64,000 nucleotides of DNA from Niabella drilacis. GTDB lineage: Bacteria; Bacteroidota; Bacteroidia; Chitinophagales; Chitinophagaceae. Where the stretch lies: NCBI RefSeq assembly GCF_900101395.1, contig NZ_FMZO01000005.1, forward strand, positions 310,001-374,000, given 5' to 3'. The notes beneath the pieces were generated by a model. That model was not told the DNA's origin and did no database searches. It worked only from the letters and a program-made list of their open reading frames with translations. Position numbers and translations under genes: made by a program. Positions 2,658 to 25,271 of this stretch are shown here, one piece after another; the first letter of the stretch is position 1; each line of letters starts with the position of its first letter.

Positions 2658-2744
2658 TATAGCAGGCGACGTTTATTAAGCTGTAATACGACATTCTTGT
2701 CTTTTGCGACTCTAAAGGTAATTCCGGGCAGGAAGGAATTACAA

Positions 2745-2756
2745 TGACCGGGGTCA
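2745..2756. promoter_or_regulatory. Fnr-like palindrome upstream of Hsp20 operon
   Basis: The sequence ATGACCGGGGTCAT spans 2744-2757, a perfect 6-bp inverted repeat around GG. It fits the TGAY-N4-RTCA pattern seen at eight other promoters in the window and resembles the classical Fnr box TTGAT-N4-ATCAA. It lies 88 bases upstream of the Hsp20 start in the divergent intergenic region 2658-2973. Confidence 0.6.
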
Positions 2757-2852
2757 TCATCCTGTTTGACGGATATTAGGTTCGGGGCGGTCTGGGCCCT
2801 TGCAGGAAGCATGTTCCGTGGTTGCTTTTGATTTTGGATACCGGGTGGGGGT

Positions 2853-2864
2853 TGACGGTGATCA
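2853..2864. promoter_or_regulatory. Fnr-like palindrome upstream of first universal stress protein
   Basis: The sequence TTGACGGTGATCAC fits TGAY-N4-RTCA. It lies about 110 bases upstream of the rightward universal stress protein gene at 2974 and is the second such site in this 316-base divergent region. Apart from these two sites I see nothing else in the gap. Confidence 0.5.
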
Positions 2865-2973
2865 CGAAGCGGCTTGACGGAACTCATTGACCTGGTAGAA
2901 AAAAGGCCTTTATTTTTAATATTCATCCGGGCGCGCCCGGAACTGGTTATTGAGACCCGGATAAAATAAGAAT

Positions 2974-3795
2974 ATGAAAACGATACTTGTGCTGGTAGAT
3001 TTTTCCAGGGCTGCTTTAAATGCGGTGAACTATGCCGTTGAAATCGCAAAGACCTGTAAGGCAAGCCTGCTGCTCCTATATGTTTGCAACCTGCCCGTTA
3101 ATTTTACCCAGGTACCTGTGTCACTCACAATGGATGATGATCGGCTCAACGCAGAAGCAGAGCTGGTAAAATTGAGAGTAAAGATTCACCGGAAGACCGG
3201 GGGCGGGCTCAGCATCTTTAGTGAAGTGCGCAACGGCAATTTCTTTTCCGAGGTCAGATTGTTTTGTGAGCATGTGCGGCCCTATCTGGTTATTATGGGC
3301 AGCCAGGGGGGATCCCGGGCGGAAAAGCTGGTCTGGGGCGGGCATACCCTTTATGAAATGCGGCATTTGCCATGGACCCTGCTCGCGGTGCCTTACAGGG
3401 CACGGTTTTCGTCCATAAAGAAAGTAGCCCTTGCCTGGGATTTCCAAAACCCCGCAGGGCAGCTGCCTGTGCAAAAAATTGATCAGCTTATTTCCGACCT
3501 GGGAGCCGGACTGCATATGGTCTGCGCAGGCTGGGAGGATGAAGATGCCTTTCGTTCCGGTAGTACAGCATTGAGCGCCCGGGCAGGCTTTCATCGTTTG
3601 GCCCCGGTGTTTCATTACCTGGAAAATAAAAGGACTTCAAAAAGTATCATAGCGTTTGTGGAAAAGAACAGGTTTGACCTGTTGCTGATCCTTCCCGGCG
3701 CACACTCCTTGCTGCAGGATCCTTTTTTTTCCGGTCATACCAAAAAGTTTGTTTTGCACTGCAGTGTACCTGTTGTAGCGCTGCATGCACAGTAG
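2974..3795 (+). CDS. Universal stress protein, tandem UspA domains
   Basis: The protein has 273 residues. The N-terminal UspA domain (residues 1-145) opens with the strand MKTILVLVDFSRAALNAVNYA and ends with YLVIMGSQGGS..., close to the G-2x-G-9x-G-S/T ATP-binding pattern. The second, more divergent domain (about 150-273) ends FDLLLILPGAHSLLQDPF and lacks a clean nucleotide motif. Bacteroidota commonly carry such double-domain universal stress proteins in hypoxia or stress islands. It is divergent from the Hsp20 operon and shares its regulatory region. Confidence 0.9.
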   Translation: MKTILVLVDFSRAALNAVNYAVEIAKTCKASLLLLYVCNLPVNFTQVPVSLTMDDDRLNAEAELVKLRVKIHRKTGGGLSIFSEVRNGNFFSEVRLFCEHVRPYLVIMGSQGGSRAEKLVWGGHTLYEMRHLPWTLLAVPYRARFSSIKKVALAWDFQNPAGQLPVQKIDQLISDLGAGLHMVCAGWEDEDAFRSGSTALSARAGFHRLAPVFHYLENKRTSKSIIAFVEKNRFDLLLILPGAHSLLQDPFFSGHTKKFVLHCSVPVVALHAQ

Positions 3796-3883
3796 CCGTT
3801 ACGAACGAGCGGTAACCTACGGGGATAAAGGATGTTGCAACCGGTATTGGGCGATAATTCGTATTGAACGTAAAATAAAGATG

Positions 3884-4601
3884 ATGAAAATTGATATACA
3901 CCAGTTAAGTACGATCGGGGATATCCAGGATCAGTTTCAAAAACAGTTCCCGTATTTGAAACTTGATTTTACAGGCATCCTCACCTGAAGGGGGAGGCCC
4001 CGTCGCTAGGGGATAAACTCAGCAGGCGGTTGCTGTTCAGGGAGGTGGCCCCTTTAACAGGCATCCGGTCGTTCCGTTTCGAAGCCGGCTGGACCGTAGC
4101 AGATTTTGAGTCCCGATTCTTCCGCATGCGCGTCAGGATAAAAAACAGGTCTATTGCCATAAAATGTAGTATGAATAAGCCTTTGGAGGCCAAAAAAGAC
4201 CTGATCTTTTGATAGCGGGCGCAGCGTGCCGCAAATAATGGTAACAAGCACTTCCAGGGACTTACCCGTAGCCGCAGCGCGGCGGGAATCTTTTCGGGAG
4301 AGACTTATAGTACCGGTGCGCTGCACCTCTGTTCCATCTCCTGTTCGTTGCTAATAAGCGCAACGCTGCGCTGCAGCTTTGGCCTTTAACCACTATTCCT
4401 AAAATTAACCTGACGCGCATGCGATTCCTCCGGGAAACCGGTATCGCCGTGCAGGTGGCGCGTTTCTCCGGCCGTGTCTGGATCCAGACAACGGACACGG
4501 ACGTTCTGACGTTGGAGCTACAGAACAGAAAAGGGAATGATGACAGCAGGGCTGTAGCACCGGACGGACCGCAGGACTCCGGCCTGCAGGAACAGGATTA
4601 G
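3884..4601 (+). pseudogene. Small stress-island gene broken by a stop, a frameshift and an insertion
   Basis: Three fragments in different frames read as one protein. The first (3884-3988) encodes MKIDIHQLSTIGDIQDQFQK and ends at a TGA. The second continues in another frame from about 3990 to 4122 (GEAPSLGDKL...TVADFESRFFR). The third resumes at about 4425 (ETGIAVQVARFSGRVWIQTT...LELQNRKG). Joined as FESRFFR + ETGIAVQV, the pieces restore a continuous segment of a roughly 115-residue protein. It resembles from memory a small conserved Bacteroidota protein found near universal stress genes, whose function I do not know. The break between fragments two and three is a 0.3-kb insert with inverted terminal repeats; the earlier break is an independent frameshift. 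The gene is therefore dead or expresses only a 34-residue peptide. Confidence 0.65.
4124..4422. mobile_element. MITE-like 299-bp insert with terminal inverted repeats
   Basis: The left end GCATGCGCGTCAGG (4124-4137) is the exact inverse of the right end CCTGACGCGCATGC (4409-4422); one further base pair at each side also matches. The flanks carry a near-perfect direct duplication of 9 bases, GATTCTTCC before and GATTCCTCC after, with one mismatch. Removing the insert plus one copy of the duplication rejoins the split host protein. No transposase is encoded; the interior has a 6-bp hairpin (AGCGCA-ACGC-TGCGCT, 4357-4372). These are the features of a non-autonomous miniature element. The transposase family that would mobilise it is unknown. 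Confidence 0.65.
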
Positions 4602-4703
4602 CGGGTGCTTATTTATATATAAGATCCTTATTAAGAGGCAGGCAAACAAGCCGGGTATGTAATGCTACGGCTGGGAATGGACGGGTATTTCCTGCATCTT
4701 TAT

Positions 4704-5288
4704 TTAAAACATGATCGGACGGCCCTTTTTGTAAGTTTTATTTTTGAGGTTGATCATGATGTTCAATATACTCATCAGCAAGAGCAGCAGTGCCAGCCAT
4801 TGAATAGTCTGTCTTGTTTTTATAAAAGGCAGATCGAGCAGTAAGGTGCCCACCGCAGCCGCACACCCCCCTTCGGCACATAAAAGCTGCCAGCCTTTTA
4901 ATATTTTTTTCTGAAACAGGGACTGCGCGATCTTCAAACCACCCCAGGCGATTGCCCAGGTGCCGGCAAAATATGAAAAGAGGAGAAAATTTAATAAGGG
5001 ATTGAACAGCATCAGCGAACCGGATACACTGTTTAACAGCCCTTCCGCAAGGATCCAGTTTGAATGGCTAAAAAATGTTCTCCCGGTATAGTATGCTGCT
5101 ATAAGCAATAACCCGTTCAAAAGAATGCCGATCCCCGAAAGTTTGATCAGTTGGAGATAGCTGTTCCAGGGATAAATAAGGATATAGGCACTGATACCCA
5201 GTAATAACAGGCTTACGGCCGGCACTACCGGCCACAGTGGTGGCCTTTTTGTTCTGCAGTTAATAACACCTGGCAGCATATAGGGCAT
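4704..5288 (-). CDS. HdeD-like (DUF308) membrane protein
   Basis: The 194-residue protein has about six hydrophobic segments arranged as helical hairpins (for example PAVSLLLLGISAYILIY, GIGILLNGLLLIAAYY, LLNFLLFSYFAGTWAIAWGG, TIQWLALLLLLMSILNIMI). The SVSGSLMLFNPLL and WAIAWGGLKI segments resemble HdeD/DUF308 proteins, linked to acid and general stress resistance in other bacteria. It sits in the inner membrane. It is transcribed leftward from a divergent region containing two Fnr-like sites. A DUF308-like identity is likely; the role is inferred. Confidence 0.72.
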   Translation of the reverse strand: MPYMLPGVINCRTKRPPLWPVVPAVSLLLLGISAYILIYPWNSYLQLIKLSGIGILLNGLLLIAAYYTGRTFFSHSNWILAEGLLNSVSGSLMLFNPLLNFLLFSYFAGTWAIAWGGLKIAQSLFQKKILKGWQLLCAEGGCAAAVGTLLLDLPFIKTRQTIQWLALLLLLMSILNIMINLKNKTYKKGRPIMF

Positions 5289-5386
5289 TTGTTTAAATGA
5301 AAGGGTATTCCCCTTGATCTTGTTTCATGGTAGCAAGATACATTTTGGTATTGCGGCGCTTCAATGAGCTCCGGCGGCTTTCATAA

Positions 5387-5398
5387 TGATTGCAGTCA
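5387..5398. promoter_or_regulatory. Fnr-like palindrome upstream of HdeD-like gene
   Basis: The sequence ATGATTGCAGTCAT fits TGAY-N4-RTCA and lies 99 bases upstream of the leftward HdeD-like gene. Confidence 0.55.
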
Positions 5399-5458
5399 TG
5401 CCTGTTTGGTGATGGCTGATAAAAAGCTTTCCCATTTAATGAGTATCATCGGCCGGGT

Positions 5459-5470
5459 TGACGGCTGTCA
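5459..5470. promoter_or_regulatory. Fnr-like palindrome upstream of truncated universal stress gene
   Basis: The sequence TTGACGGCTGTCAT fits TGAY-N4-RTCA and lies about 53 bases upstream of the rightward reading frame at 5523. Its presence suggests that the now truncated gene was once a regulon member. Confidence 0.5.
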
Positions 5471-5522
5471 TAGATAAGCAAAAGAACACGGCCGTAGTTT
5501 TGAATGATGAACGGGGAGCGTT

Positions 5523-5876
5523 ATGATAAAGATCTTATTTGCAGCTGACGGCATCAATATGGAGCAAGAGGCGTTTTCGTTTATCCGGGAATTGAACCGG
5601 GAAACGCCTGTATATCTGTATGGGGTCTTTTTACCAAAGCGCTCATTGCGTTATTGGTTACTGCGGGCAGGTTCTCTCTTCTTGTTACCTCCATACGATG
5701 ACCGAACGCAGCAACAGCTGATAGTCGCCCCAGCCCGGTTCGCAGCGTTATATAATAAGTACCGGAATAAGCACTCCTCCTGTTGGGGAAGAGGAGAAAC
5801 GCCCGTGTTGAAGCTAAAAAAAGAAAGCCGGTATGCGGATCTGCTGGTGATCGGTTATGCGGTGCTGCCTGTTTAA
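5523..5876 (+). pseudogene. Truncated universal stress protein
   Basis: The frame encodes 117 residues that align with the first UspA domain of tandem universal stress proteins: opening strand MIKILFAADGINMEQEAFSF, a middle region, and LKKESRYADLLVIG near the end. It then stops after YAVLPV, so the nucleotide-binding loop and the whole second domain are missing. The following 170 bases contain several stops and no clear continuation. It was probably a full 270-residue protein that has lost its C-terminal half. A short functional single-domain protein is possible but the abrupt end argues against it. Confidence 0.6.
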
Positions 5877-6052: not shown

Positions 6053-6880
6053 ATGGAAAATCTGCTCCTGCTCATTAATGATATTGCATTCAATAACAGT
6101 TCAGCGGAATTTGCCTGCTATCTGGCGGCAATGACCCGGTCCCGCCTTCAGGGGGTTTTACTGGCGGGGGGGCGGGAGGCGCTGTGCGCAAAAAGAACGG
6201 CTAACCTGGAAGTTTATGCACCGGCCGCGCCGGACAAAAAGTCGGTATTGAATCCCCGAGCAGGCATCCGGGATGATATCCGTCAATTCAGGGAGGTATG
6301 CGGGAAGGAACGGGTCTCCGGTACCGTAAACTGTCTGAAAGGAGATTCCCTGCGGGAGGCGGTATCGGCCAGCCGTTTCGCAGATCTGATGGTGGTAGAT
6401 GCAGCGATTTCACCGGATGCGGATGATAATGCATACCTCGGGCCGTTTGTCTGGGCATTGCTCCAGGCTGCAGAATGCCCGTTGGTGATCGTCTCCGGCC
6501 CGGCCTCGGAAATTGATGAAATAGTACTGACTTACGACGGCTCCGCTTCCGCCTTATTTGCCTTCAGGCGATTTGCCCGGTTGTTCCCTTGCTTTGAACA
6601 TAAGCCGGTGGTGGTGGTTGCTGCAGACCGCTTTCCGGACTGCAGGCACGAGCGATTAATTGAGGAGCAATTGAAACCATATTATACACAGATGCATTTT
6701 GAGGCCTTATATGCCAGGGATTTCGGCAGTGCGCTATTTGATTTTTACCAGAGACGGAACAATTGTTTTATCGTAATGGGGGCATCCGGAAGAACGGATT
6801 TTTCGAGGCTGGTGCCAGGCGGTGGAATGCATTTGAATGGAGGCGCTATCGGACATCCCGTTTTTATTTCCCACTTCTGA
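6053..6880 (+). CDS. Universal stress protein, tandem UspA domains
   Basis: The protein has 275 residues starting at the ATG at 6053 (MENLLLLINDIAFNNSSAEF); an upstream in-frame start at 6017 would add 12 unlikely residues. The first UspA domain ends with RFADLMVVDAAIS. The second begins EIDEIVLTYDGSASALFAF and ends CFIVMGASGRTDFSRLVPGG, which carries the G-A-S-G-R-T-x-F pattern of the nucleotide-binding loop. It is therefore more canonical than the universal stress protein at 2974. It is followed 23 bases later by the polymerase gene, so the two may be cotranscribed. Confidence 0.87.
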   Translation: MENLLLLINDIAFNNSSAEFACYLAAMTRSRLQGVLLAGGREALCAKRTANLEVYAPAAPDKKSVLNPRAGIRDDIRQFREVCGKERVSGTVNCLKGDSLREAVSASRFADLMVVDAAISPDADDNAYLGPFVWALLQAAECPLVIVSGPASEIDEIVLTYDGSASALFAFRRFARLFPCFEHKPVVVVAADRFPDCRHERLIEEQLKPYYTQMHFEALYARDFGSALFDFYQRRNNCFIVMGASGRTDFSRLVPGGGMHLNGGAIGHPVFISHF

Positions 6881-6903: not shown

Positions 6904-7929
6904 ATGAGACAGGTTCCGGAATACAAGAATAATGACGCGATCGCCTGTATATTCCGGCAGATAGCCCGCTGTTACCGGTACCTGGGAGGCGAAGGATTCC
7001 GGGTGGCGGCTTATCAGGGCGCTGCCGAAATGCTTCTGAATATGCGCGAAGATATTGCCGTCTACGCTTCTGATATAAAGCGTTTGGAAGCACTTGATCA
7101 TATCGGCGAACGTATGGCCATGAAAATAACAGAATACCTGCAGACCGGAAAAATTGCAGTTTTCAGCCATTTGAAAAAACAGGTGCCGTATGGGTTACTG
7201 GAATTGATGGATATCAGCGGTTTTGGGCCTGCAACATTAAGAATACTTTATGACCGCCTGGGTATAAAAAACGAGGACGAGCTTGTGGAGGCACTCAATG
7301 ATCATCGGCTGGACGGTGTAAAAGGGATTGGTAAGCGAAGAGTAGAGAACATGAAAGTGCTGCTGGCGGTAACAAGAAGAGGGCAGCCGGTTTCGTTGAC
7401 CGATGCCCGGAGGATCGGTACCGCCCTGGTTGGCCTGTTAACGAAAATACCAGGCGTTCAGCGCGCCGAGCTTTGTGGCAGTATCCGTAGGAAAAAACCT
7501 TTGGTTGGAGATATTGACATACTGGTTCTCGCCGAGCCGGAAGCCCGCCGGGCCATTGTGCAAACTTTCATAGCTTCCCGGCATGTGCTGCGGGTGTTGG
7601 TCAGCGGCGTTAATAAAGCCAGCGTTTTACTCCGGTGCCGGCATATCCAGGTAGATATCCGGCTCATGCATTCCCGCGAATATGGTGCGGCGTTGCTTTA
7701 TATGACGGGCTCCCGCGGGCATACCGTCCATCTGCGGATGATCGCTAAAGAAAAGGGTTATATGATGAATGAATATGGCCTTTTTGAACGGGCAACGCAC
7801 CGGAAAATAGCAGGATCAACGGAGAAAGAAATGTACCGGGCATTGGGACTGAAGTATATCCCCCCCGAACTGCGTTTGAACAATGGTGAAATAGAATCGG
7901 CAGGTTTAAGCCGGGCAATGCATATGTGA
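6904..7929 (+). CDS. Family X DNA polymerase without PHP domain
   Basis: The 341-residue protein starts at the ATG at 6904 (MRQVPEYKNNDAIACIFRQI). Residues 1-80 match the helical 8-kDa domain, followed by two helix-hairpin-helix motifs (LLELMDISGFGPAT, DGVKGIGKRRVENM). The catalytic palm has the nucleotidyltransferase signature GSIRRKKPLVGDIDILV with two metal-binding Asp, and the third Asp in VDIRLM; the thumb contains YGAALLYMTGSRGHTVHLR. Bacterial PolX normally continues into a 3'-5' exonuclease PHP domain of about 230 residues; this one ends after ELRLNNGEIE. Gap-filling repair synthesis is the likely role. It pairs functionally with the DNA ligase at 16471. Confidence 0.88.
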   Translation: MRQVPEYKNNDAIACIFRQIARCYRYLGGEGFRVAAYQGAAEMLLNMREDIAVYASDIKRLEALDHIGERMAMKITEYLQTGKIAVFSHLKKQVPYGLLELMDISGFGPATLRILYDRLGIKNEDELVEALNDHRLDGVKGIGKRRVENMKVLLAVTRRGQPVSLTDARRIGTALVGLLTKIPGVQRAELCGSIRRKKPLVGDIDILVLAEPEARRAIVQTFIASRHVLRVLVSGVNKASVLLRCRHIQVDIRLMHSREYGAALLYMTGSRGHTVHLRMIAKEKGYMMNEYGLFERATHRKIAGSTEKEMYRALGLKYIPPELRLNNGEIESAGLSRAMHM

Positions 7930-9437: not shown

Positions 9438-9449
9438 TGATGTCAGTCA
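9438..9449. promoter_or_regulatory. Fnr-like palindrome upstream of second BON gene
   Basis: The sequence GTGATGTCAGTCAT fits TGAY-N4-RTCA and lies 89 bases upstream of the BON gene at 9538. The spacing is almost the same as for the Hsp20 operon site. Confidence 0.55.
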
Positions 9450-9537: not shown

Positions 9538-10209
9538 ATGAAAAGTGACATTCAGATTCAAAAGGACGTAATGGAAGAATTGAATTGGGACCCCGTTTTG
9601 AGCGCCGCGGAAATAGGGGTAGCGGTAAAAGATGGAGTGGTAACGCTTGGCGGACAGGTGGGCGCCTATTCTCAGAAAATTGCGGCGGAAAAAGATGCAA
9701 AGAGGGTTTCGGGCGTAAAAGCCGTAGCAGAAGATATCCAGGTAGGTATTTCTCCTGCATATCGTAAAACAGATGCAGAAATCGCAGAAGCGGTATTGAA
9801 CGCCCTGAAATGGCATTCGGCTGTGCAGGAAGAAAAGATCAAAATTAAAGTGGAGGATGGCCTGGTACAGCTTGACGGGGAAGTGGAATGGGAATACCAG
9901 CGTAATAATGCCAAGGCGGCCATACAAAATTTGGCCGGAGTACGCAGCGTGCTGAATTTGATCACCGTAAAACCCCGGGTAACCACTTCAGGCGTTCAGC
10001 AAAAGATACGGGACGCATTTGAACGCAGCGCAACGGTGGATGCAGAACGCATCGGTATTGATGTTTCCGGCAGTAAGGTAACATTGCATGGGAAAGTCCG
10101 TTCATTTGCAGAAAAGGAAGATGCAGAGCAGGCAGCATGGAATGCTCCGGGCGTATCCAGTGTGGAAAATGAACTGGAAATAGACCTGGTGGAATTTGCC
10201 TTTGATTAA
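9538..10209 (+). CDS. Triple BON-domain protein, paralog of the first
   Basis: The protein has 223 residues with three BON domains at about 3-70, 78-146 and 152-218 ([42 protein letters not shown]). The frame opens upstream at 9466, but the paralog at 1560-2210 starts at the residue matching the ATG at 9538, so I use that start. It has no signal peptide. It stands alone, ends in a strong terminator and has its own Fnr-like site. The paralog pair probably arose by duplication inside the island. Confidence 0.9.
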
Positions 10210-10765: not shown

Positions 10766-10957
10766 TCAGGCCGGTTCCTGCTTTGTTACTTTTGTATTCC
10801 CAAATGTATTGTTGTTCCTGGCGTTCTTTTTTTTGCACGCAGCCATTATCTTTTTCCTGATATCGCTGCCTTTTTCCGGAGCAAATAAGCTGCCCAACGT
10901 TGCACCCGCGGCCAGACCGGCGGCGACCGCTGTCAATGTTTTACTAAAATGATTCAT
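10766..10957 (-). CDS. YtxH-domain small membrane-associated protein
   Basis: The 63-residue protein MNHFSKTLTAVAAGLAAGAT... has one glycine-rich hydrophobic helix followed by LFAPEKGSDIRKKI, the hallmark of YtxH-like proteins. The C-terminus is basic and polar. YtxH proteins are linked to general stress in Bacillus; the mechanism is unknown. It is transcribed divergently from the cardiolipin-synthase-like gene, and the shared region 10958-11183 contains an Fnr-like site. Confidence 0.8.
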   Translation of the reverse strand: MNHFSKTLTAVAAGLAAGATLGSLFAPEKGSDIRKKIMAACKKKNARNNNTFGNTKVTKQEPA

Positions 10958-11131
10958 GATTTTCTTTTTATTGTTAATAATCGCTAAGGTAACCTGATCA
11001 GCGACGGATAAAAATGATACGACTCAACAGGCAGAATGATGCCGGTCAATTTAACGGGAAGGTGCAGTACGAGCCGGGCACCCGGAGCCTGGTCACTGCA
11101 ATGCAGGAATTTTAGCAGTCATCAAGCGGGA

Positions 11132-11143
11132 TGATCAGGGTCA
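11132..11143. promoter_or_regulatory. Fnr-like palindrome between YtxH and phospholipase D genes
   Basis: The sequence ATGATCAGGGTCAT fits TGAY-N4-RTCA. It is 41 bases upstream of the phospholipase D-like gene at 11184 and 175 bases upstream of the YtxH gene, so it more likely serves the former or both. Confidence 0.55.
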
Positions 11144-12995: not shown

Positions 12996-13352
12996 GACTT
13001 TTTGTATGAAATTAACAATGCCGTTGCATTGGATAAATGGCTTTGCCCCATGATACTGCTGTTTGAGATCATCAATCTGTTGCCAGATACTAAGGGATCC
13101 GTCGGGATGTTTGCTGCGCTCAGGCGCTCCAATAGCGCCTGAGCGGGTATTGCCATTAAGGGTGCGCCTTTTTTTTCGGACACAAAGATTTCAGAACAGC
13201 CGGATTGAATAATTGCCTGGTGCAAAATGAAAACGGAAAGCACGATCAGGGGCTGGGATGATGTAGGTCATCGGTCTTTGCGCTACTATATGATAATTTT
13301 AAATATCAATGCGTGACGGATGTAACGTATGTTAAGAAGATAAGGCTGGATC
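12996..13352. other. Divergent intergenic region with a 12-bp perfect hairpin
   Basis: This 357-base stretch separates the broken membrane protein gene from the Mla operon. It holds a perfect inverted repeat CGCTCAGGCGCT-CCAAT-AGCGCCTGAGCG at 13117-13145 without a T-run on either side, and an Fnr-like site at 13259. A leftward 91-codon open frame (12968-13243) overlaps it but has no recognisable family or good composition, so I do not call it a gene. Confidence 0.5.
13259..13270. promoter_or_regulatory. Fnr-like palindrome upstream of the Mla operon
   Basis: The sequence ATGATGTAGGTCAT fits TGAY-N4-RTCA and lies 83 bases upstream of the permease gene at 13353, at about the same distance as the Hsp20 and BON sites. 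Confidence 0.55.
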
Positions 13353-14123: not shown

Positions 14124-14136
14124 AAACAGCAGGTAC

Positions 14137-14904: not shown

Positions 14905-14909
14905 ATCAT

Positions 14910-16470: not shown

Positions 16471-17493
16471 ATGCCAAAACAAAAAACAGCGGCTGTACCG
16501 GAACGGGTAGCGCCCATGCTTTGCAAATTAGTGAAAGAAGTGCCGGTGTTAAAAGACTATTTGTTTGAAGTTAAATGGGATGGCTACCGCATGATCGCCT
16601 ATGTACAGGATGGTAACGTACGCATGGAGTCCAGAAGCGGGCTTGACTATACGGCAAGATACCCCGAGATCGAAAAAGCGCTGAAAAGCCTGCAACGGAA
16701 CGTGATCATCGATGGAGAGGTAGTGGTTTTTAATAAGGCGGGCCGGCCCGATTTTGATGCGTTGCAACATTATAATGGGAACCATACACCGATCCGTTAC
16801 TGTGTCTTTGATCTGCTCTGGCTGGATGGTCAAAACCTGGAGCAACGTCCGCTTACCGAAAGAAAAACATTGCTGAAAAAGCTTGTTAGTAAAAGGCCTG
16901 TTTTCAGGTACAGCGAAAGTTTTGATGACGGGGCTGTTTTATATGAACAGATGCGGTCCCTGGACCTGGAAGGTGTGATAGCCAAGCGGAAGGAGAGTGT
17001 TTACCGGGAAGGTATGCGTGGTGCCGAGTGGCTGAAGATCCCGACCAGGAAGCGGCAGGAGTTCGTCATAGGGGGATGGGCCGAATCTGCCAGGGCGCGC
17101 TGCTTTAAAAGCCTTCTTTTTGGCGCTTACGATCATGGAATGTTTATATGGATCGGCCGCAGCGGTGGCGGCTACAAAGAAAAGGAGATGCCCGGGATTT
17201 TAAAAAAACTGAAAGCGCTGGAGATCAGCGATCCCCCCTTTATGAACCCCGTCCTCGACGCTAAAGGTGCGGTACTGCATTATGTGCGCCCTGAGCTTGT
17301 TGCCAATTTTGAATTTGCTGCCTGGACAAAAACAGGAAGGATCCGGAAACCTGCTATATTCCTGGGTTTCCGGAATGATAAAAGGCCGGAGGATGTGGTA
17401 AGGGAACTACCGGAAAGTGCCGGTACCATTCAACAGGAACTGAAGAAGGCGGAAACGGACCGCTCAAAACGCATCGCCGGTATGGGATATTGA
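16471..17493 (+). CDS. ATP-dependent DNA ligase (LigD ligase-domain type)
   Basis: The 340-residue protein starts with the nucleotidyltransferase motif I EVKWDGYR, with K35 as the adenylated lysine. It continues with motif III (VFDLLWLDG), motif IV (LEGVIAKR) and motif V (EWLKIPTRKRQEFVIGGW). The OB-fold domain follows (about 205-320), ending VANFEFAAWTKTGRIRKPAI. It corresponds to the free-standing ligase module of LigD, without the polymerase and phosphoesterase domains; no Ku gene is in the window. Together with the family X polymerase at 6904 it could support gap repair in non-growing cells. Confidence 0.9.
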   Translation: MPKQKTAAVPERVAPMLCKLVKEVPVLKDYLFEVKWDGYRMIAYVQDGNVRMESRSGLDYTARYPEIEKALKSLQRNVIIDGEVVVFNKAGRPDFDALQHYNGNHTPIRYCVFDLLWLDGQNLEQRPLTERKTLLKKLVSKRPVFRYSESFDDGAVLYEQMRSLDLEGVIAKRKESVYREGMRGAEWLKIPTRKRQEFVIGGWAESARARCFKSLLFGAYDHGMFIWIGRSGGGYKEKEMPGILKKLKALEISDPPFMNPVLDAKGAVLHYVRPELVANFEFAAWTKTGRIRKPAIFLGFRNDKRPEDVVRELPESAGTIQQELKKAETDRSKRIAGMGY

Positions 17494-18680: not shown

Positions 18681-19433
18681 TCATAGCTCATACTGGTACC
18701 CAAGACTTATTACTGCAGCACCCGTTCTGTTTCTTCCGTTGGCGCTGTTTTTCTGGATGACGATGATGCCGTAATTACCGCCTACTTCAAGAAAAATGCT
18801 GCCGGAAATGATTTTACGTCCTAAACCCATGTGCCCGGTAATACCGGTATTAAAGCGGTGCAGGTCGTTGGCAATATTGTCTTCATTGTTGAACGACCGG
18901 GGCTGCGGATCAAGCGGCTGCGTTTTGTTTTCGTCAGGATAGATAATGCTGGATCCGCTTGTCCTGTTTTTTGCGCCTAAAAGATAACTGGCAAAGGGCC
19001 CCGCAGCTATATATACATCCCATTTCTTTTGGGGATTCAGATGGTATTTGACAAGGACCGGCAACAGGAAATATGCCAGTTTGGTTTCGCTTGTATAGTC
19101 GGCATACAGGTAGGCCGGCGCTTCCCCGGGGGGAAACAGGGGAGCCATCTCCCCGGGCACCGGAAACGCCTGCAGCCCGTTCTTTCTCCCGCCCTGAAGG
19201 GAGTACTCCAGTTGCGGCTGGATCGAGAAGCTCCTGCTGAACTTATATTCGGCATGCAGGGCAGCGTCCTGGTAGGCTTGTGACCTGTATCCGGAACTTA
19301 AAGGATTGTCTGAGCCCGCTGCATGTAAACTGGGAATGCTGACGCCTGGTTTGAAGGCAATTTCAATATTTCGCTGGGCGCGGGAAAAGCCGGCGATGGA
19401 AATAACGATTATGATAAGGATATACTTTTTCAT
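18681..19433 (-). CDS. PorT-like outer-membrane beta-barrel protein
   Basis: The 250-residue protein has a signal peptide (MKKYILIIIVISIAGFSRAQ), then alternating beta strands typical of small outer-membrane barrels: RNIEIAFKPGVSIPSL, HAEYKFSRSFSIQPQLEYSL, YFLLPVLVKYHLNPQKKWDV, YIAAGPFASYLLGAK, and a C-terminal strand AAVISLGYQYEL ending near an aromatic residue. It fits the PorT/outer-membrane-protein-beta-barrel family common in Bacteroidota. Its role is unknown. An Fnr-like site lies 105 bases upstream, the last island site on this side. Confidence 0.8.
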   Translation of the reverse strand: MKKYILIIIVISIAGFSRAQRNIEIAFKPGVSIPSLHAAGSDNPLSSGYRSQAYQDAALHAEYKFSRSFSIQPQLEYSLQGGRKNGLQAFPVPGEMAPLFPPGEAPAYLYADYTSETKLAYFLLPVLVKYHLNPQKKWDVYIAAGPFASYLLGAKNRTSGSSIIYPDENKTQPLDPQPRSFNNEDNIANDLHRFNTGITGHMGLGRKIISGSIFLEVGGNYGIIVIQKNSANGRNRTGAAVISLGYQYEL

Positions 19434-19537: not shown

Positions 19538-19549
19538 TGATGCAGGTCA
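19538..19549. promoter_or_regulatory. Fnr-like palindrome upstream of the outer-membrane protein gene
   Basis: The sequence ATGATGCAGGTCAC fits TGAY-N4-RTCA and lies 105 bases upstream of the leftward barrel protein gene starting at 19433. Confidence 0.5.
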
Positions 19550-19968: not shown

Positions 19969-20769
19969 ATGATAATGGTTATTGCAGGTTATCTGGCATC
20001 GGTTCTTATCGGCATTTCCCTGGGGCTCATCGGCGGAGGTGGCAGCATCCTTACGGTTCCCGTATTGGTATACCTGTTTGGGATCGACCCGGTATCGGCT
20101 ACTGCTGATTCCCTTTTTATTGTAGGGGTTACCAGTGCCGTAGGATCGGTGGCCTATCTGAAAAAGGGATTGGTGCATGTCCGTACCGCCGTTATTTTTG
20201 GCATCCCGTCCATTGGCGCCGTTTTTTTAACAAGAGCTTATATCCTTCCTTTTATCCCCGAAACGGTGTTCAGCATAGCAGGCATTGCCGTTACAAAGGG
20301 GGCATTGTTAATGTTGCTTTTTGCAGTACTGATGCTCCTGGCTTCTTACAGCATGATAAGAGGAGAACGAAAGCCGGCATGCTCCCCTGTGCTGCGGCAG
20401 CATCCCCGGTACCTGCCATTGATAATGCAGGGGGCTTTTATCGGGCTTATTACCGGGCTGGTGGGGGCAGGTGGTGGTTTCCTGATCATTCCCGCGTTGG
20501 TAAACCTGCAAAAATTACCGGTAAAGACCGCCATCGGTACATCGCTGGTCATTATTTCGGTTAATTCATTATTGGGATTTTTCTTTTCCTTAACCCATAA
20601 CGCCGTACAGTGGGGACTGTTGGGTGTTATTGCTTTTATTGCGATAGCGGGCATCCTGGTCGGTAGCTATTTTTCGGGAAAGGTGAATGGAAAAATACTG
20701 AAACCCGCTTTTGGCTGGTTTGTGCTGGTAATGGGCATTTATATCCTGGTGAAGGAGCTCGTCAGGTAG
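19969..20769 (+). CDS. TauE/SafE-family sulfite/sulfonate exporter
   Basis: The 266-residue protein has about eight membrane segments in two repeats, each carrying a glycine-rich signature: ISLGLIGGGGSILTVPVLVY near the start and GLITGLVGAGGGFLIIPALV at about residue 160. This is the TauE/SafE (DUF81) pattern. The family exports sulfite, sulfoacetate and similar organosulfur anions. Its position and promoter shared with the persulfide operon suggest that it removes sulfite or another oxidised sulfur product. Starts at residue 1 or 3 (MIMVIAGY) are equally possible. Confidence 0.87.
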   Translation: MIMVIAGYLASVLIGISLGLIGGGGSILTVPVLVYLFGIDPVSATADSLFIVGVTSAVGSVAYLKKGLVHVRTAVIFGIPSIGAVFLTRAYILPFIPETVFSIAGIAVTKGALLMLLFAVLMLLASYSMIRGERKPACSPVLRQHPRYLPLIMQGAFIGLITGLVGAGGGFLIIPALVNLQKLPVKTAIGTSLVIISVNSLLGFFFSLTHNAVQWGLLGVIAFIAIAGILVGSYFSGKVNGKILKPAFGWFVLVMGIYILVKELVR

Positions 20770-20803
20770 CCGCGATGCATGCGTGATTGAAAATATTTCT
20801 CCC

Positions 20804-20859
20804 TGTGTAACAAAAGTAGCTGTATAAAAGCCTTCATAGCAGGAAATTCGCTGTATCAA
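20804..20859 (+). promoter_or_regulatory. Shared two-part promoter box, copy 2 (persulfide operon)
   Basis: The core GTAACAAAAGTAGCTGTA (box from 20804) and TTCGCTGTATCAA (from 20847) repeat the architecture at 19908, with the same 43-base offset. The operon ATG follows at 20887, 27 bases after the second element. Confidence 0.6.
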
Positions 20860-20886
20860 AAAATAATAGTATTAAAATAAAATAGC

Positions 20887-22305
20887 ATGTTCTTTCAACA
20901 CATTTACGATCAAAACCTGGCACAGGGCAGTTACCTGGTCGGTTGCCAGGCAACCGGAGAAGCGATGGTAATAGACGCCAGGAGGGATACCGATATTTAC
21001 CTGGAGCTTGCGGCAGCAAACGGTCTCCGCATCACGCATATAGCAGAAACGCATATTCATGCCGACTTTCTTTGCGGTTCCAGGGAGCTTGCCGCTGTTA
21101 CAGGAGCAACGATGTACCTCTCGGACGAAGGAGGTAAAGACTGGCAGTACCAATTTCCACACCAGGGACTAAAGGACGGCGACCGCATCAGGGTCGGCAA
21201 CCTGAGTTTTGAAGTCATGCACACACCGGGGCACACACCTGAGAGTATCAGTTTCCTGCTGACGGACCACCCGGCCACGGATAAGCCGGTCATGCTGTTT
21301 ACCGGTGATTTTGTATTTGTAGGAGATGTTGGCCGCCCCGATCTTTTGGAAAAAGCAGCAGGGATCATGGGCACAAAAGAGGCAGGCGCCCGGCAGCTGT
21401 TCCAGTCGCTTAAAAAGTTTGCGGCGCTTCCTGATTATGTACAGGTATGGTCGGCACATGGCGCCGGTTCGGCCTGTGGAAAAGCCCTGGGTGCGGTACA
21501 CAGCAGTACCGTAGGGTATGAAAAGATCCGCAACTGGGCATTTCAATACGGAGCGGACGAGCCGGCATTTACGGAGTATCTTTTATCGGGTCAACCCGAG
21601 CCGCCCGCCTATTTTGCAATGATGAAACGGCTGAACAAGGAGCCGCGCCCCCTGCTGATAGCGGTTCCGCAGCATACCCGGTTATCCAAAGAACAATTCA
21701 TGACGGCTTACAACAAAGGTATGCGGGTGATCGATACCCGCAGTAAGGCAGATTTTGCAAAAGGGTTTATACCGGGAAGCCTGAACATCCAGGGCAATCA
21801 TTCTTTTTCCACCTGGTGCGGCTGGTTGCTGAATTACCAGGAACAGTTCATGCTTATTGCCGATGGCCATCAAATGGAGGACCTGACGCGTAAGCTGATG
21901 CGGATCGGCCTGGATAATATATACGGCTATATTTCAGATATAGAAGACCTGGGGACCCAACTGCAGGCGGCGGATCTTATTGCTCTTGACGCATTTAAAA
22001 CTGCTGTTGGCAATGCGGAGGTACAGATCGTGGATGTGCGGGGCGCGGCTGAATATGAAGCGGGGCATATAGCAGGAGCTTCCCATGTTTTTGTGGGAAC
22101 GCTTGAAAAAAACCTGGATAAGATCCGTAAGGACAAACCGGTAATCATTCATTGCCAGGCCGGTGACCGTTCCACCATTGCCTGTTCCATACTTGCAAAA
22201 AACGGGTTTAAAAATATAAAGAATTTCCCGGGCGGAATGAAAGAATGGCTAAGCGCCGGGGGCAAGGTTGTTACCGGCAATGCGGTATCGCAGGATAACA
22301 TTTAA
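20887..22305 (+). CDS. Persulfide dioxygenase-like MBL protein fused to rhodanese domains
   Basis: The 472-residue protein has an MBL-fold N-terminal half (1-240) with the metal motif HIHADFLCGS (H-x-H-x-D), then HTPGHTPES and GDFVFVGDVGRPDLL, which match persulfide dioxygenases (ETHE1-like). Two rhodanese domains follow. The first (about 270-350) lacks a catalytic Cys at the expected loop; the second (about 365-465) has HCQAGDRS with the active Cys. Such enzymes oxidise glutathione or protein persulfide to sulfite with O2 and transfer sulfane sulfur. It heads the sulfur operon. Confidence 0.92.
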   Translation: MFFQHIYDQNLAQGSYLVGCQATGEAMVIDARRDTDIYLELAAANGLRITHIAETHIHADFLCGSRELAAVTGATMYLSDEGGKDWQYQFPHQGLKDGDRIRVGNLSFEVMHTPGHTPESISFLLTDHPATDKPVMLFTGDFVFVGDVGRPDLLEKAAGIMGTKEAGARQLFQSLKKFAALPDYVQVWSAHGAGSACGKALGAVHSSTVGYEKIRNWAFQYGADEPAFTEYLLSGQPEPPAYFAMMKRLNKEPRPLLIAVPQHTRLSKEQFMTAYNKGMRVIDTRSKADFAKGFIPGSLNIQGNHSFSTWCGWLLNYQEQFMLIADGHQMEDLTRKLMRIGLDNIYGYISDIEDLGTQLQAADLIALDAFKTAVGNAEVQIVDVRGAAEYEAGHIAGASHVFVGTLEKNLDKIRKDKPVIIHCQAGDRSTIACSILAKNGFKNIKNFPGGMKEWLSAGGKVVTGNAVSQDNI

Positions 22306-22316
22306 AATAAATAATT

Positions 22317-22634
22317 ATGGGACTTTTTTCGTCGTTGTTTGGAAAAAAAGACGCAACTCAATTAGCAGCTGTGATAGCGGCGGGGGCCTTCCTGGTAGAT
22401 GTACGGACCCCCGAAGAATTTTTAGCCGGCAGTGTAAAAGGTGCGGTGAATATTCCGCTGGATCAGCTGCAGGGAAGATTAGCGGCATTCAAAAACAAGA
22501 ACGCCATTGTCGTATTCTGCAGAAGCGGTGGCCGCAGCAGTATGGCAAAACGGCTATTGACACAAAATGGTTTTGATAATGTGATCAATGGAGGCAGCTG
22601 GCAACAGGTAAACAGGATTCGGTCTCAAAAATAG
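22317..22634 (+). CDS. Single-domain rhodanese
   Basis: This 105-residue protein has the rhodanese core DVRTPEEFLAGSVKGAVNIP and the active-site loop FCRSGGRS with C68 as the persulfide-carrying cysteine. There is no signal peptide; the first residues GLFSSLFGKK are amphipathic. It probably shuttles sulfane sulfur between the dioxygenase upstream and the thioredoxin or transporters downstream. It starts 11 bases after the preceding gene and its stop abuts the next ATG. Confidence 0.92.
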   Translation: MGLFSSLFGKKDATQLAAVIAAGAFLVDVRTPEEFLAGSVKGAVNIPLDQLQGRLAAFKNKNAIVVFCRSGGRSSMAKRLLTQNGFDNVINGGSWQQVNRIRSQK

Positions 22635-22640
22635 ATGCGT

Positions 22641-22850
22641 ATGAAAAAGAATATAGGAACAACAGACAAAGCCCTGCGCCTGCTTGTGGCCGTGGCCATT
22701 TTGGGCGCCTGTCTGGCAAACCGGATCCAGGGTATAACCGCGGTGATCCTGGGGATACTGGCCGGCATCCTGTTGCTTACTTCCGTTGCAGGCATTTGCC
22801 CGCTTTACCGGTTATTCGGTATCAACACTATAAAAAAAAGAAGAACATGA
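22641..22850 (+). CDS. DUF2892-type small membrane protein
   Basis: The protein has 69 residues from the second Met (MKKNIGTTDKALRLLVAVAI); a Met two codons earlier immediately follows the rhodanese stop. It has two membrane helices and the ending GICPLYRLFGINT, which is the pattern of the DUF2892 segment often fused to rhodaneses, as in YgaP. The G-x-C-P-L-Y-R motif places one conserved Cys at the membrane surface, so it may receive sulfur from a rhodanese. Its stop overlaps the next ATG. Confidence 0.85.
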   Translation: MKKNIGTTDKALRLLVAVAILGACLANRIQGITAVILGILAGILLLTSVAGICPLYRLFGINTIKKRRT

Positions 22851-23080
22851 AAATATCAGCATCAAGTTGGAGCAGGATACGTTTATTGCGGTTAGTGGCC
22901 GGACTGTTGATCATTTTGGCAGCGATCCAAACAAAAGAATGGCTGCTGATGACCGGAGGTGTGGTGCTTTCGGCAATGGCGCTGCTGAATACAGGCTGCT
23001 GTAGCACTTCCTCCTGTAACAGGCCTGCCCCGCAAAATAATAAACAGACCGATGCTGTCAGCTATGAAGAAGTTCACTAA
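22847..23080 (+). CDS. Cys-rich small membrane protein of the sulfur operon
   Basis: The 77-residue protein has two hydrophobic helices (LLRLVAGLLIILAAIQT, WLLMTGGVVLSAMALLN) followed by a cysteine cluster NTGCCSTSSCN and a polar tail. The layout parallels DUF2892 proteins, with the extra cysteines in place of the single conserved one. The ATG at 22847 overlaps the preceding stop (ATGA). The cysteines suggest sulfur relay or metal binding, which is inference. Confidence 0.75.
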   Translation: MKISASSWSRIRLLRLVAGLLIILAAIQTKEWLLMTGGVVLSAMALLNTGCCSTSSCNRPAPQNNKQTDAVSYEEVH

Positions 23081-23288
23081 AAGCCACCTGCTGGTACTGG
23101 CTGGTGTGATCGCCGGTGCCATTGCAGGATATTGCTACTGGAAGTTCACCGGCTGCCGTTCAGGGAGCTGCGCGATCACTTCAAAACCGCTGAACAGTAC
23201 GATCTACGGTGCGGTTATGGGCGGACTTTTATTTTCAATATTTAAAAAGAAGGAGGAATCATCACATGACATTCCAGGAAATGATTAA
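23064..23288 (+). CDS. DUF6132-like small membrane protein
   Basis: The 74-residue protein (MKKFTKSHLLVLAGVIAGAI start) has two membrane helices joined by YWKFTGCRSGSCAITSKP. This C-x4-C loop between helices, followed by STIYGAVMGGLLFSIFKKK, matches the DUF6132 family found beside rhodaneses in Bacteroidota. It overlaps the preceding gene by 17 bases and the thioredoxin start by 23 bases, indicating tight translational coupling. Function is unknown, but the paired Cys fit a membrane thiol relay. Confidence 0.78.
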   Translation: MKKFTKSHLLVLAGVIAGAIAGYCYWKFTGCRSGSCAITSKPLNSTIYGAVMGGLLFSIFKKKEESSHDIPGND

Positions 23289-23559
23289 CGGCGACAAGCC
23301 GGTGCTGGTAGATTTTTTTGCAGCATGGTGCGGGCCCTGTAAAATGATGACGCCGGTGCTGGAAGCATTGAAGCAACGCATCGGGGACCGTGCACGCATT
23401 ATTAAAATTGATGTAGACAAAAACCCGCAGGCCACCGTTGCTTTCGGGGTTCAGGGGGTACCTGCCTTTATCCTGTTTAAAGGCGGAGCAGTACGGTGGC
23501 GTCAGTCCGGTGTGTTACCGGCAGGTGAACTGGAGCGATTGATCAACGAAAACCAATAA
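23266..23559 (+). CDS. Thioredoxin
   Basis: The 97-residue protein has the thioredoxin active site W21-C22-G-P-C25, the buried Asp in LVDFFAAW and the cis-Pro loop GVPAFILF. I chose the ATG at 23266, which follows a strong ribosome binding site AAGGAGGA at 23250-23257, unusual for this phylum. The N-terminus lacks a signal peptide, so it is cytoplasmic. It probably reduces persulfides on the rhodaneses. Confidence 0.93.
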
Positions 23560-23565
23560 TACAAC

Positions 23566-24129
23566 ATGATAGAATTGATAAAACAGCCCTGGCCCTGGTA
23601 TGTGGCAGGCCCGCTGATCGGTCTGACCGTTCCGGTACTTTTAATAGCCGGTAATAAATCCTTCGGCATCAGTTCCTCACTGCGGCATATCTGCGCCTCC
23701 TGTGTGCCTGCCAATATCCCGTTCTTTCAATATGACTGGAGAAAGGAAGCCTGGAATCTCTTTTTTGTATTGGGCATCTTTTTAGGGGGTGGCATGGCCC
23801 TGTACCTGTTATCGGCGCCCCATTCCATCGAAGTGCATCCCGCGCTCCTGCAGGAGCTGGCTGGTTATGGCATCACAGGTACGGATCACCTGGTACCCGG
23901 TGCCCTTATCAGCTGGCAGTCGCTGTTTACTTTAAGAGGATTTATCGTAATGACAGGCGGGGGCTTTTTAGTAGGTTTTGGAGCAAGGTATGCCGGCGGT
24001 TGTACCAGCGGGCATGCTATAACGGGGTTGTCGAACCGGCAATTACCCTCGTTGATCGCCACTATTTTCTTTATGGCAGGTGGTTTCATTATGGCGAACC
24101 TTATCCTGCCGTTCATTCTCAAACTTTAA
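23566..24129 (+). CDS. YeeE/YedE half-transporter, first part
   Basis: The 187-residue membrane protein has the YeeE/YedE (DUF395) pattern: [32 protein letters not shown] with paired Cys, and [16 protein letters not shown] with the conserved channel Cys. Full-length TsuA-type proteins are about 350 residues; here the function is split over two genes, this one and the next. The family imports thiosulfate or moves other sulfur species through the inner membrane. Confidence 0.88.
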
Positions 24130-24144
24130 ATAAAACAGTGATAT

Positions 24145-24669
24145 ATGCAGGAGCAGGGGCAATATAAAATACACGAGGCGGCCGTAACGGACAGGGATCC
24201 CGGAACACGCTCGTTAGACGCGATCTGTATCAATGAAAGCCGGCTGGAGCACAGGTGGTATCACAGCCTCAAGTACCTGGCTGTCGGGGTGTTGTTTGGT
24301 ATACTCATGGTGAAAGCCGAAGTGGTCAGCTGGTTTCGTATACAGGAGATGTTCCGGTTGCAGTCATTCCATATGTATGGCATCATCGGGAGTGCTGTGG
24401 CAACCGGTATGCTTTCGGTTTGGCTGATTAAAAAATTCAGGATAAAAACCATTTATGGTGAGCCGGTGATGCTTTCATCCAAAACCTTCAACAAAGGGCA
24501 GGTTTATGGCGGGCTGATCTTCGGTTTGGGATGGGCCATGACCGGCGCCTGCCCGGGGCCGCTTTTTGCACAGATCGGAACCGGCAGCAGCGTGGTGGTA
24601 GTTACGCTTTTGAGCGCCGTAGCAGGGACCTGGGTTTATGGCTGGCTGAGAAAAAAACTGCCGCATTAG
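24145..24669 (+). CDS. YeeE/YedE half-transporter, second part
   Basis: The 174-residue protein has a 40-residue polar N-terminal extension, then four membrane segments and the second-half signature GLIFGLGWAMTGACPGPLFA, whose Cys is the conserved channel residue. It follows its partner by 15 bases and ends the sulfur operon. The two halves together would give one pore with two Cys gates. Confidence 0.87.
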   Translation: MQEQGQYKIHEAAVTDRDPGTRSLDAICINESRLEHRWYHSLKYLAVGVLFGILMVKAEVVSWFRIQEMFRLQSFHMYGIIGSAVATGMLSVWLIKKFRIKTIYGEPVMLSSKTFNKGQVYGGLIFGLGWAMTGACPGPLFAQIGTGSSVVVVTLLSAVAGTWVYGWLRKKLPH

Positions 24670-25214
24670 CCGCCCGGCTGCCTTCGTAGCCGGCAACGGC
24701 CAGGGTTCATAAAAACGGTTGCCGGAGCTCCTGTGAATATTCCGTTTCCGGTTTTTGATTCCCGGAAGCCCATGGGCCTCCGGTACCTGCTTATATGGTT
24801 CCGCACCGTCAGGTTAAACGGGGTAGTAATTGCTCCTTGCTTCATACACCCCATAAGTGGAAGCAGGGAATTGGGAAGCCCGTAAAAAAGGTTATGGATG
24901 ATCCGGTCATAACCCTGAAAGACAGGTATACGGTCGCCATCATAGTAGAGAAACCAGTGTGTTGTTTATTCCTTAAGCCATACGGGTGATATAGTTCCGG
25001 GGACAAAGCCATCCGATAGCCCATGCATCTGGATAATAAAAATGCAGTTCCCGCTCCTGTTGAACAAGGCATCTGCCAGTACTTTTGCCGCATCTGCATA
25101 CCCCGTGCTCAATAACCCATGAAATATACGGTTGTTATACTGATCAAAGGTCTATCGCATCTTCCGCTGTACCGGCGTTGTACGTCTTAAACCCTGATCT
25201 GCCACCCTGTAAAA

Positions 25215-25226
25215 TGATTTTCATCA
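25215..25226. promoter_or_regulatory. Fnr-like palindrome upstream of the sigma factor gene
   Basis: The sequence ATGATTTTCATCAA fits TGAY-N4-RTCA and is the closest of the nine to the classical Fnr box. It is 205 or more bases upstream of the sigma factor start, so its target is uncertain. Confidence 0.35.
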
Positions 25227-25271
25227 AGCCTGGTTCAAGCTGGTTAAAGTAGGACCTTTATAAAGCGCTTA

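Follow-up and report, generated by a model that had tools for sequence, protein, structure and literature searches.

A Stress-Gene Island of Niabella drilacis with a Shared, Precisely Placed Promoter Box and a Candidate Receiver-Crp Regulator

Introduction

In the FixL-FixJ-FixK system of rhizobia, FixJ and FixK are two proteins of one cascade, and the output domain of FixJ is of the LuxR type. The cbb3 oxidase is a classic target of such systems, and the distal-pocket Arg of FixL is thought to matter for oxygen. FNR of E. coli has the Crp fold, a Glu and an Arg in the recognition helix, and TGA half-sites; the FNR box is TTGAT. DosR of mycobacteria has an output domain of the LuxR/NarL type, kinases with other sensor domains and another operator, and its targets include Usp, Hsp20, and P-type ATPase genes. 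The −7/−33 promoter elements of Bacteroidota differ from those of E. coli sigma-70. Here, a stretch of 64,000 nucleotides from the 6.10-Mb genome of Niabella drilacis (Bacteroidota) is analyzed. This whole stretch, C16:310001–374000 (C16 being contig NZ_FMZO01000005.1), is called the window. It contains palindromes of the form TGAY-N4-RTCA near stress genes, and a gene for a fused receiver-Crp regulator (REC-Crp; 446–1504 of the window).

Low-oxygen sensing and the switching of survival genes seem little described in Bacteroidota. Among titles and abstract openings (bioRxiv and most subscription journals lie outside this coverage), no literature on a receiver-Crp regulator of Bacteroidota was found. 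According to excerpts of PMC2908626, the predicted FNR/FixK regulons of Alphaproteobacteria contain P-type ATPase, cbb3 subunits, FixG, UspA, OmpW, FixL, Hsp20, and alcohol dehydrogenase. A rhizobial Hsp20 gene shows about 50-fold higher expression in microaerobic cells, which depends on FnrN, and has a TTGA-N6-TCAA anaerobox upstream (excerpts of PMC11784457).

The system of N. drilacis resembles FixL-FixJ-FixK/FnrL of Alphaproteobacteria in the FixL-like PAS kinase, the receiver step, the Crp-family activator, and the TGA-N6-TCA core. It differs from the rhizobial cascade in that receiver and Crp are one protein, and from the FixK/FnrL systems in that the boxes are paired 22 bp apart before a Bacteroidota −7 box, with no preference for T before TGA. 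The fusion shares the Crp fold, the recognition-helix Glu and Arg, and the TGA half-sites with E. coli FNR, whereas it has a receiver domain, no Cys in the Crp part, and a half-site other than TTGAT. The DosR dormancy regulon is similar in its Usp, Hsp20, and P-type ATPase targets and in its two-component control, but the output of the fusion is HTH_Crp_2 (Pfam) and not of the LuxR/NarL type. Plain Crp proteins of other Bacteroidota (for example, in genomes G324, G231, and G221) also have a tandem 22-bp box pair beside their genes, but they lack a receiver domain (open reading frames, ORFs, of 243 to 295 amino acids, aa). The system would work like FixL-FixJ-FixK; the criteria tested place it outside FixK and FNR.

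Results

Clustering of the Palindromes

Many promoters in a 42-kb island of stress genes share a precisely placed box, sometimes a pair of boxes. The island very likely constitutes a stress regulon with a common palindrome, probably of the low-oxygen type. Thirteen TGAYN4RTCA sites are seen in the window, against 2.69 ± 1.72 per shuffle and 8 at most in 100 dinucleotide shuffles of the window. Ten of these sites are intergenic, all of them in the interval 2745–25226 (genes were called by our own ORF rules, and ORFs of at least 90 aa define the split). The initial annotation had listed nine intergenic sites (2745, 2853, 5387, 5459, 9438, 11132, 13259, 19538, and 25215), and all are found there. 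The four additional sites are 6274, 7205, and 45709, which are in ORFs, and 11037, which is intergenic and among the top scores. The extended form ATGAY or GTGAY followed by RTCAT, proposed for six of the nine, is seen in six if 19538 is taken on the minus strand and in five on the plus strand.

The window is only a part of the cluster, which extends over C16:294199–335215 and begins about 16 kb upstream of the window. In the 419 kb of C16 examined, 23 of 39 sites fall in C16:294000–336000 (the island). The island contains 20 intergenic sites in 8,134 intergenic bases, or 2.46/kb, against 0.09/kb inside genes. The rest of the examined C16 contains one intergenic site in 41,229 intergenic bases (0.024/kb; genic 0.045/kb). 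The contrast in intergenic density is thus about 100-fold. Forty other stretches of this genome (781 kb) have 10 intergenic sites in 100,083 bases (0.10/kb; genic 0.05/kb). The whole genome contains 396 sites and 139 reversed palindromes, the control pattern used outside the window. The initial annotation suggested a genome-wide scan, and took equal frequency inside genes as a sign against the regulon. Such equality is not seen within the island. Elsewhere the pattern is not clearly intergenic, which indicates that the signal is the island.

A Composite Promoter in Related Loci

Relatives of the fusion were collected by a contig scan, which gave 566; the best 80 loci were kept (46–63% identity over nearly the whole protein; the fusion was not recovered by ORF calling in three of them). 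They span Chitinophagaceae, Sphingobacteriaceae, Weeksellaceae, Fulvivirgaceae, and others. These loci (1.35 Mb) contain 438 sites and 54 reversed controls. Among site pairs not more than 120 bp apart, the spacing is 22 bp in 33 cases and any other spacing is seen four times at most; the reversed control yields no pair. The start of TANNTTTG stands exactly 45 bp after a site in 56 cases and exactly 23 bp after one in 20; outside these two peaks, there are 0 to 3 cases per offset. TANNTTTG matches TAnnTTTG, the Bacteroidetes promoter consensus according to excerpts of PMC5682007.

The alignment of the promoters gives TGAT-N4-ATCA, then ten bases, then TGAC-N4-RTCAT, followed after about 22 bases by TANNTTTG. 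When only the distal box is required, the TCA of the proximal box is still conserved (T in 54, C in 45, and A in 52 of 55). In the sequences of relatives, the unit is therefore a box pair with a −7 box and not a lone palindrome, and the observation is of a promoter class rather than of a mere palindrome. With TANNTTTG taken as the −7 element, the box centers would fall near −40 and −62. This geometry would be that of a class II activator with a second dimer two turns upstream.

Counted across the phylum, the exact pattern of a site, 45 bp, and TANNTTTG is found in 97 rows from 59 of 198 genomes, including 38 rows from outside the class. Of these rows, 45 are from the 32 fusion-bearing genomes of this set and 52 from the other 166. 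TCA at the proximal box as well is present in 28 of the 45 versus 10 of the 52 (p = 2e-5). The exact pattern has no match in the N. drilacis genome because many of its −7 boxes are imperfect or deviate by one base. A scored model was therefore used.

The Composite Promoter in N. drilacis

The three-part score matrix was trained on the loci of relatives only, excluding the sequence of this genome. Ten composite matches of at least 16 bits are in the 42-kb island, one is in the other 377 kb of C16, and one is in a Markov-shuffled version of the contig. With the threshold lowered to 14 bits, the numbers are 10, 4, and 2, respectively. The 781 kb of other stretches of this genome contain three matches of at least 16 bits, one of which is 1.4 kb from a second REC-Crp gene. 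Six of the ten intergenic sites in the window (2745, 2853, 5459, 9438, 11037, and 19538) fit the composite promoter. Two exact tandem pairs are located upstream of the window, at C16:294199 and 294306. The nine-site set thus survives in part: it missed 11037, and 5387 and 11132 score below 9 bits. The site 25215 should be removed, as it lacks the promoter geometry, scores below 9 bits, and is likely due to chance. The Hsp20-BON-REC-Crp operon of the fusion carries the 2745 box, which indicates probable autoregulation. The sites and genes in the window are as follows.

446–1504, minus strand: REC-cNMP-HTH_Crp_2 fusion regulator, 352 aa, with receiver Asp9, Asp52, Thr82, and Lys104 (Pfam, translation, alignment)
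1560–2210, minus strand: BON-domain protein, probably in the same operon as the fusion (Pfam)
2214–2657, minus strand: Hsp20 small heat-shock protein, whose gene heads the probable Hsp20-BON-REC-Crp operon (Pfam)
2745–2756, minus strand: proximal box of the Hsp20-BON-REC-Crp promoter; −7-like box from 2720 (minus strand); no good distal box; composite 16.7 (here and below, boxes from pattern scan and composite model)
2853–2864, plus strand: distal box of the Usp promoter; proximal box at 2875–2886 (TGACGGAACTCA); weak −7-like box from 2911; composite 16.0
2974–3795, plus strand: universal stress protein (Pfam)
4704–5288, minus strand: HdeD-like (DUF308) membrane protein (Pfam)
5387–5398, minus strand: palindrome upstream of the HdeD-like gene; no composite match of 9 bits or more
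5459–5470, plus strand: proximal box; partial distal box at about 5437–5448; −7 box TAGTTTTG from 5495; composite 29.1
5523–5876, plus strand: 117-aa ORF downstream of the 5459 promoter, no Pfam match (ORF list, Pfam)
6053–6880: 275-aa ORF after the 117-aa ORF, no Pfam match (ORF list, Pfam)
9438–9449, plus strand: proximal box; −7-like box from 9473; weak distal box; composite 20.2
9538–10209, plus strand: BON-domain protein; the frame is open from 9466, and ATG at 9538 is the chosen start (Pfam, sequence)
10766–10957, minus strand: YtxH-like small protein, E = 1.5e-8, below the curated cut-off (Pfam)
11037–11048, minus strand: distal box; proximal box at 11015–11026 (TGAGTCGTATCA); −7-like box from 10991 (minus strand); composite 27.0
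11132–11143, plus strand: palindrome upstream of the phospholipase D-like gene; a shortened TAATTTG at roughly the right distance by eye (sequence); no composite match of 9 bits or more
11184–12377, plus strand: phospholipase D-like protein (Pfam)
13259–13270, plus strand: proximal-type box; −7-like box from 13294; no distal box; composite 13.7 (moderate)
13353–15890, plus strand: Mla-type operon of MlaE permease, ABC ATPase, and MlaD (Pfam)
18681–19433, minus strand: outer-membrane beta-barrel protein (Pfam)
19538–19549, minus strand: proximal box; partial distal box; −7-like box from 19513 (minus strand); composite 23.6
25215–25226, no strand assigned: palindrome upstream of an ECF sigma gene, lacking the promoter geometry and probably due to chance

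Based on Pfam, the island genes inside the window encode the receiver-Crp fusion, BON, Hsp20, Usp, DUF308/HdeD-like, PolX-like, L,D-transpeptidase, a second BON, phospholipase D-like, MlaE/ABC/MlaD, ATP-dependent DNA ligase, an LPG-synthase-type membrane protein, and an outer-membrane barrel. Upstream of the window, the island contains Usp-family proteins (one below the Pfam cut-off), two alcohol dehydrogenases, a PPDK/PEP-synthase-like protein, a second Hsp20, a PAS-PAS histidine kinase, a cation P-type ATPase, a pyridoxamine-oxidase-like protein, and a polysaccharide deacetylase.

The Fusion Regulator and Its Putative Kinase

The Pfam matches of the fusion are Response_reg (E = 5.5e-29), cNMP_binding (7.6e-22), and HTH_Crp_2 (6.3e-15). 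With D9, D52, T82, and K104 in the receiver and a Crp helix-turn-helix, it qualifies as a response regulator with Crp output. The receiver phosphorylation residues and the recognition-helix Glu and Arg are conserved across the aligned fusions. Cys ligands for a 4Fe-4S cluster, as in FNR, were not found in the fusion; its sole Cys is Cys51, in the receiver. Nor is T preferred before TGA (26 of 180 and 11 of 158 half-sites in the two groups of loci described below), so that the half-site is not TTGAT and the earlier label "Fnr-like" is loose. The NCBIfam model of Caulobacter FixK gives 67.8 bits for the fusion, below its cut-off of 300. No equivalog model exceeds its cut-off among the top 25 NCBIfam matches listed for each of three proteins, namely the fusion and the two kinases described below.

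A PAS histidine kinase is encoded not more than 300 bp from REC-Crp in 65 of the 80 loci, often overlapping the regulator start. The island has its own PAS-PAS kinase at C16:300280–301869. Its first PAS domain matches, at the sequence level, the structures of FixL (1d06, E = 1.3e-12) and DosP (7.8e-10). His is present at the FixL heme position in 61 of the 62 kinases aligned over this column (64 tested, including the island kinase).

A second fusion with a PAS kinase directly upstream is located at C18:90256–92608, with a Usp-family gene nearby and a strong composite promoter at C18:88870. The C18 kinase and the island kinase are the two best kinase matches in this genome (the next is 2e-25). 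The genome thus carries two sets: that on C18 has the usual operon arrangement, and the other is dispersed across the island. The identity between the two fusions is 59%, and they share the recognition residues E-S-L-I-R. They are not grouped together in the tree: the C18 fusion clusters with those of two Chitinophagaceae relatives, apart from the longer branch of the island copy. Two REC-Crp genes are also seen on contig17 of Niastella vici, about 97 kb apart, with no PAS-kinase match in the fetched stretch of either. The REC-Crp proteins of Chryseobacterium (L098, L101, L105, L110, and L113) are placed among those of the Pedobacter side, suggesting lateral transfer.

Tandem Sites and Regulators across Genomes

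Among 198 genomes of the class, tandem sites are present in 71 of 97 with the fusion and in 28 of 101 without it (odds ratio 7.1, Fisher p = 2e-10). For most genomes, the search for REC-Crp was confined to the 10 best first-look candidates, and incomplete metagenome-assembled genomes are in the class without the fusion; some of the latter may therefore be false negatives. There are 233 tandem copies in the fusion-bearing genomes and 48 in the others, whereas the reversed pattern is found at one place in all 198. Seen from the other side, 71 of the 99 tandem-bearing genomes have the fusion. The fusion gene is within 30 kb of 21 of the 67 tandems listed (of 233) in fusion-bearing genomes. Exclusive control of tandem sites by the fusion was considered and rejected, based on the 28 fusion-less genomes with tandems.

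Plain Crp proteins were searched for in 80 of the 101 genomes without the fusion. They were found also in 25 of 52 examined genomes with neither fusion nor tandem, indicating that plain Crp alone predicts tandems poorly. In eight of the exceptional genomes, which were opened, TANNTTT stands at exactly 23 bp in 5 of 12 tandem loci. The presence of tandems and plain Crp in fusion-less genomes indicates that the architecture belongs to a wider Bacteroidota Crp group.

The base before TGA varies with the helix type of the fusion, as expected if the fusion reads the sites. G is seen before TGA in 52 of 158 half-sites of loci with the -S-R helix, versus 12 of 180 with the -I-R helix (p = 6e-10).

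Predicted Targets and the cbb3 Oxidase

The 80 loci contain 199 promoters of at least 18 bits, and a downstream ORF was obtained for 183. This target list is in-sample because the model was trained on these loci. Pfam was run on 110 of the 183, and the first 25 of 50 families were listed: HSP20 (18), 2-hydroxyacid dehydrogenase (17), COX1/FixO (10), PAS kinase (8), BON (5), Usp (5), YceI (5), and OmpW, alcohol dehydrogenase, P-type ATPase, receiver-Crp, and radical SAM (2 each) are among them. Of the 27 ORFs closest to the second Hsp20 of the island, 22 are direct predicted targets in relatives. The list is close to the predicted FNR/FixK regulons of Alphaproteobacteria (as far as given in excerpts of PMC2908626). 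The earlier suggestion of a dormancy regulon is an analogy; the closest match in content found is this low-oxygen regulon.

In N. drilacis, FixO is found on C38 and C40. The cbb3 operon on C38 (L164:7198–14805) encodes a heavy-metal P-type ATPase, a fused CcoNO, CcoP, and CcoG. The single composite match of at least 13 bits in the 20 kb around it scores 20.0 and lies 36 bp before the P-type ATPase ORF, the first of the operon. Thus, this genome has an operator upstream of a cbb3 operon (C38), as is characteristic of a FixLJ-K regulon. The second FixO stretch, on C40, has no composite match of at least 13 bits.

Discussion

The sites are fairly likely to be the operators of a two-component regulon, in which a FixL-like PAS kinase acts on a fused FixJ/FixK-type REC-Crp activator of stress and cbb3 genes, probably at low oxygen. 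The histidine kinase with the FixL-like PAS (the island kinase, with a second copy on C18) would phosphorylate the receiver of the 446–1504 fusion. In its phosphorylated form, the fusion would occupy, as dimers, a single TGAY-N4-RTCA box or two of them at a spacing of 22 bp. The center of the nearer box is about 29.5 bp upstream of the T of TANNTTTG, which corresponds to about −40 if TANNTTTG is the −7 element; this box could replace the −33 element, and the fusion would act there as a class II activator. The farther box would lie about two helical turns upstream. In this way, the fusion may activate, probably when oxygen is low, the Hsp20, Usp, BON, envelope, and cbb3-oxidase genes as well as the operon that encodes it. 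The boxes, their spacing in relatives, the conserved −7 distance, the statistical link to regulator and kinase, and the predicted targets are read from the sequence, whereas phosphorylation, binding, the direction of regulation, and oxygen as the signal are inferred.

Several observations weigh against this scheme. The island kinase is 8.6 kb from the fusion, and in its alignment with FixL, made for this kinase only, Leu occupies the column of the distal-pocket Arg. Four of the ten intergenic window sites score below 16 bits (13259 at 13.7; 5387, 11132, and 25215 below 9). In the window, two full boxes are seen for 11037 alone; most of the other sites have a partial second box or none, and the −7 box contributes only 2.9 to 5.3 bits in six of the seven window matches of at least 13 bits. 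The association of tandems with the fusion is uncorrected for relatedness, and 28 of the 101 genomes without the fusion have tandem sites. Plain Crp is present in 24 of these 28, the best matches being 27–38% identical to the Crp half, and directly adjoins a tandem in at least five (G221:C10, G227:C39, G231:C34, G322:C168, and G324:C49), a minimum as places were listed for part of the genomes. This genome also has a plain Crp at C25:36735, whose recognition helix ETISR has Glu and Arg at the base-reading positions. The helix types are split on essentially one branch of the tree, and their sites also differ at position +5 (p = 7e-4). When every TGA-N6-TCA of the loci is counted, the difference in G before TGA shrinks to 22% versus 11%.

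The identity of the Crp protein that reads the island sites could be considered in this light. The initial annotation reasoned that the fusion is the only Crp/Fnr protein in the window. This is weak evidence, as four further matches in the genome exceed the HTH_Crp_2 cut-off, including the C18 fusion and the C25 Crp. The plain C25 protein might read the sites, alone or jointly with the fusions, with REC-Crp merely a target. Its base-reading Glu and Arg, and the plain Crp genes of the fusion-less genomes with tandems, would fit such a role, but tandems are commoner with the fusion and clustered near its gene, the base before TGA shifts with the helix type of the fusion and is not the T that an FNR box would need, and nearly half of the genomes with neither fusion nor tandem have plain Crp as well. 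Control by the C25 protein is therefore unlikely. It is slightly less improbable, yet still doubtful, that the C18 fusion with its adjacent kinase regulates the island and that the island copy is a duplicate with another or lost role. C18 keeps the kinase-regulator operon of most relatives and groups with two of them, the island copy is on the longer branch, and both fusions have the same recognition residues. On the other hand, the island copy retains its receiver and helix residues and sits in an operon with its own box, and only one composite match of at least 13 bits is found in the 20 kb around C18.

Chance could be suspected as well, since the pattern is common genome-wide and not clearly intergenic outside the island. 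For the whole set it is refuted, and its probability is negligible: the island differs about 100-fold from the rest of the contig, relatives share the fixed 22-bp pairing and the fixed −7 distance, and none of the 100 shuffles reached 13 sites. For 25215, chance is likely. The 446–1504 fusion is the best-supported candidate for the regulator, as tandems accompany fusions (71/97 vs. 28/101) and its own operon has a site. The initial interpretation was right in outline, with one site wrong and the extent incomplete.

It can be speculated, with a little less than even confidence, that a low-oxygen switch of this kind is widespread in Bacteroidota. It would unite the FixJ and FixK steps in one phosphorylation-controlled Crp, with paired dimers two turns apart replacing the −33 element, and N. 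drilacis would have two sets, one of them running the stress island. The composite promoter is precise enough for regulon prediction in many genomes. It also makes testable whether a Crp-family protein can be phosphorylation-controlled and act at Bacteroidota promoters.

Neighboring Genes

A PolX-like DNA polymerase (6904–7929) and an ATP-dependent DNA ligase (16471–17493) are encoded within the island, which hints at a repair function. A sulfur module at 19969–24669 adjoins the island and consists of TauE/SafE, MBL-rhodanese, rhodanese, thioredoxin, and two Sulf_transp proteins; it has no supported box of its own. Just past the island end, a pair of an ECF sigma factor and a FecR-type anti-sigma is located at 25407–27260.

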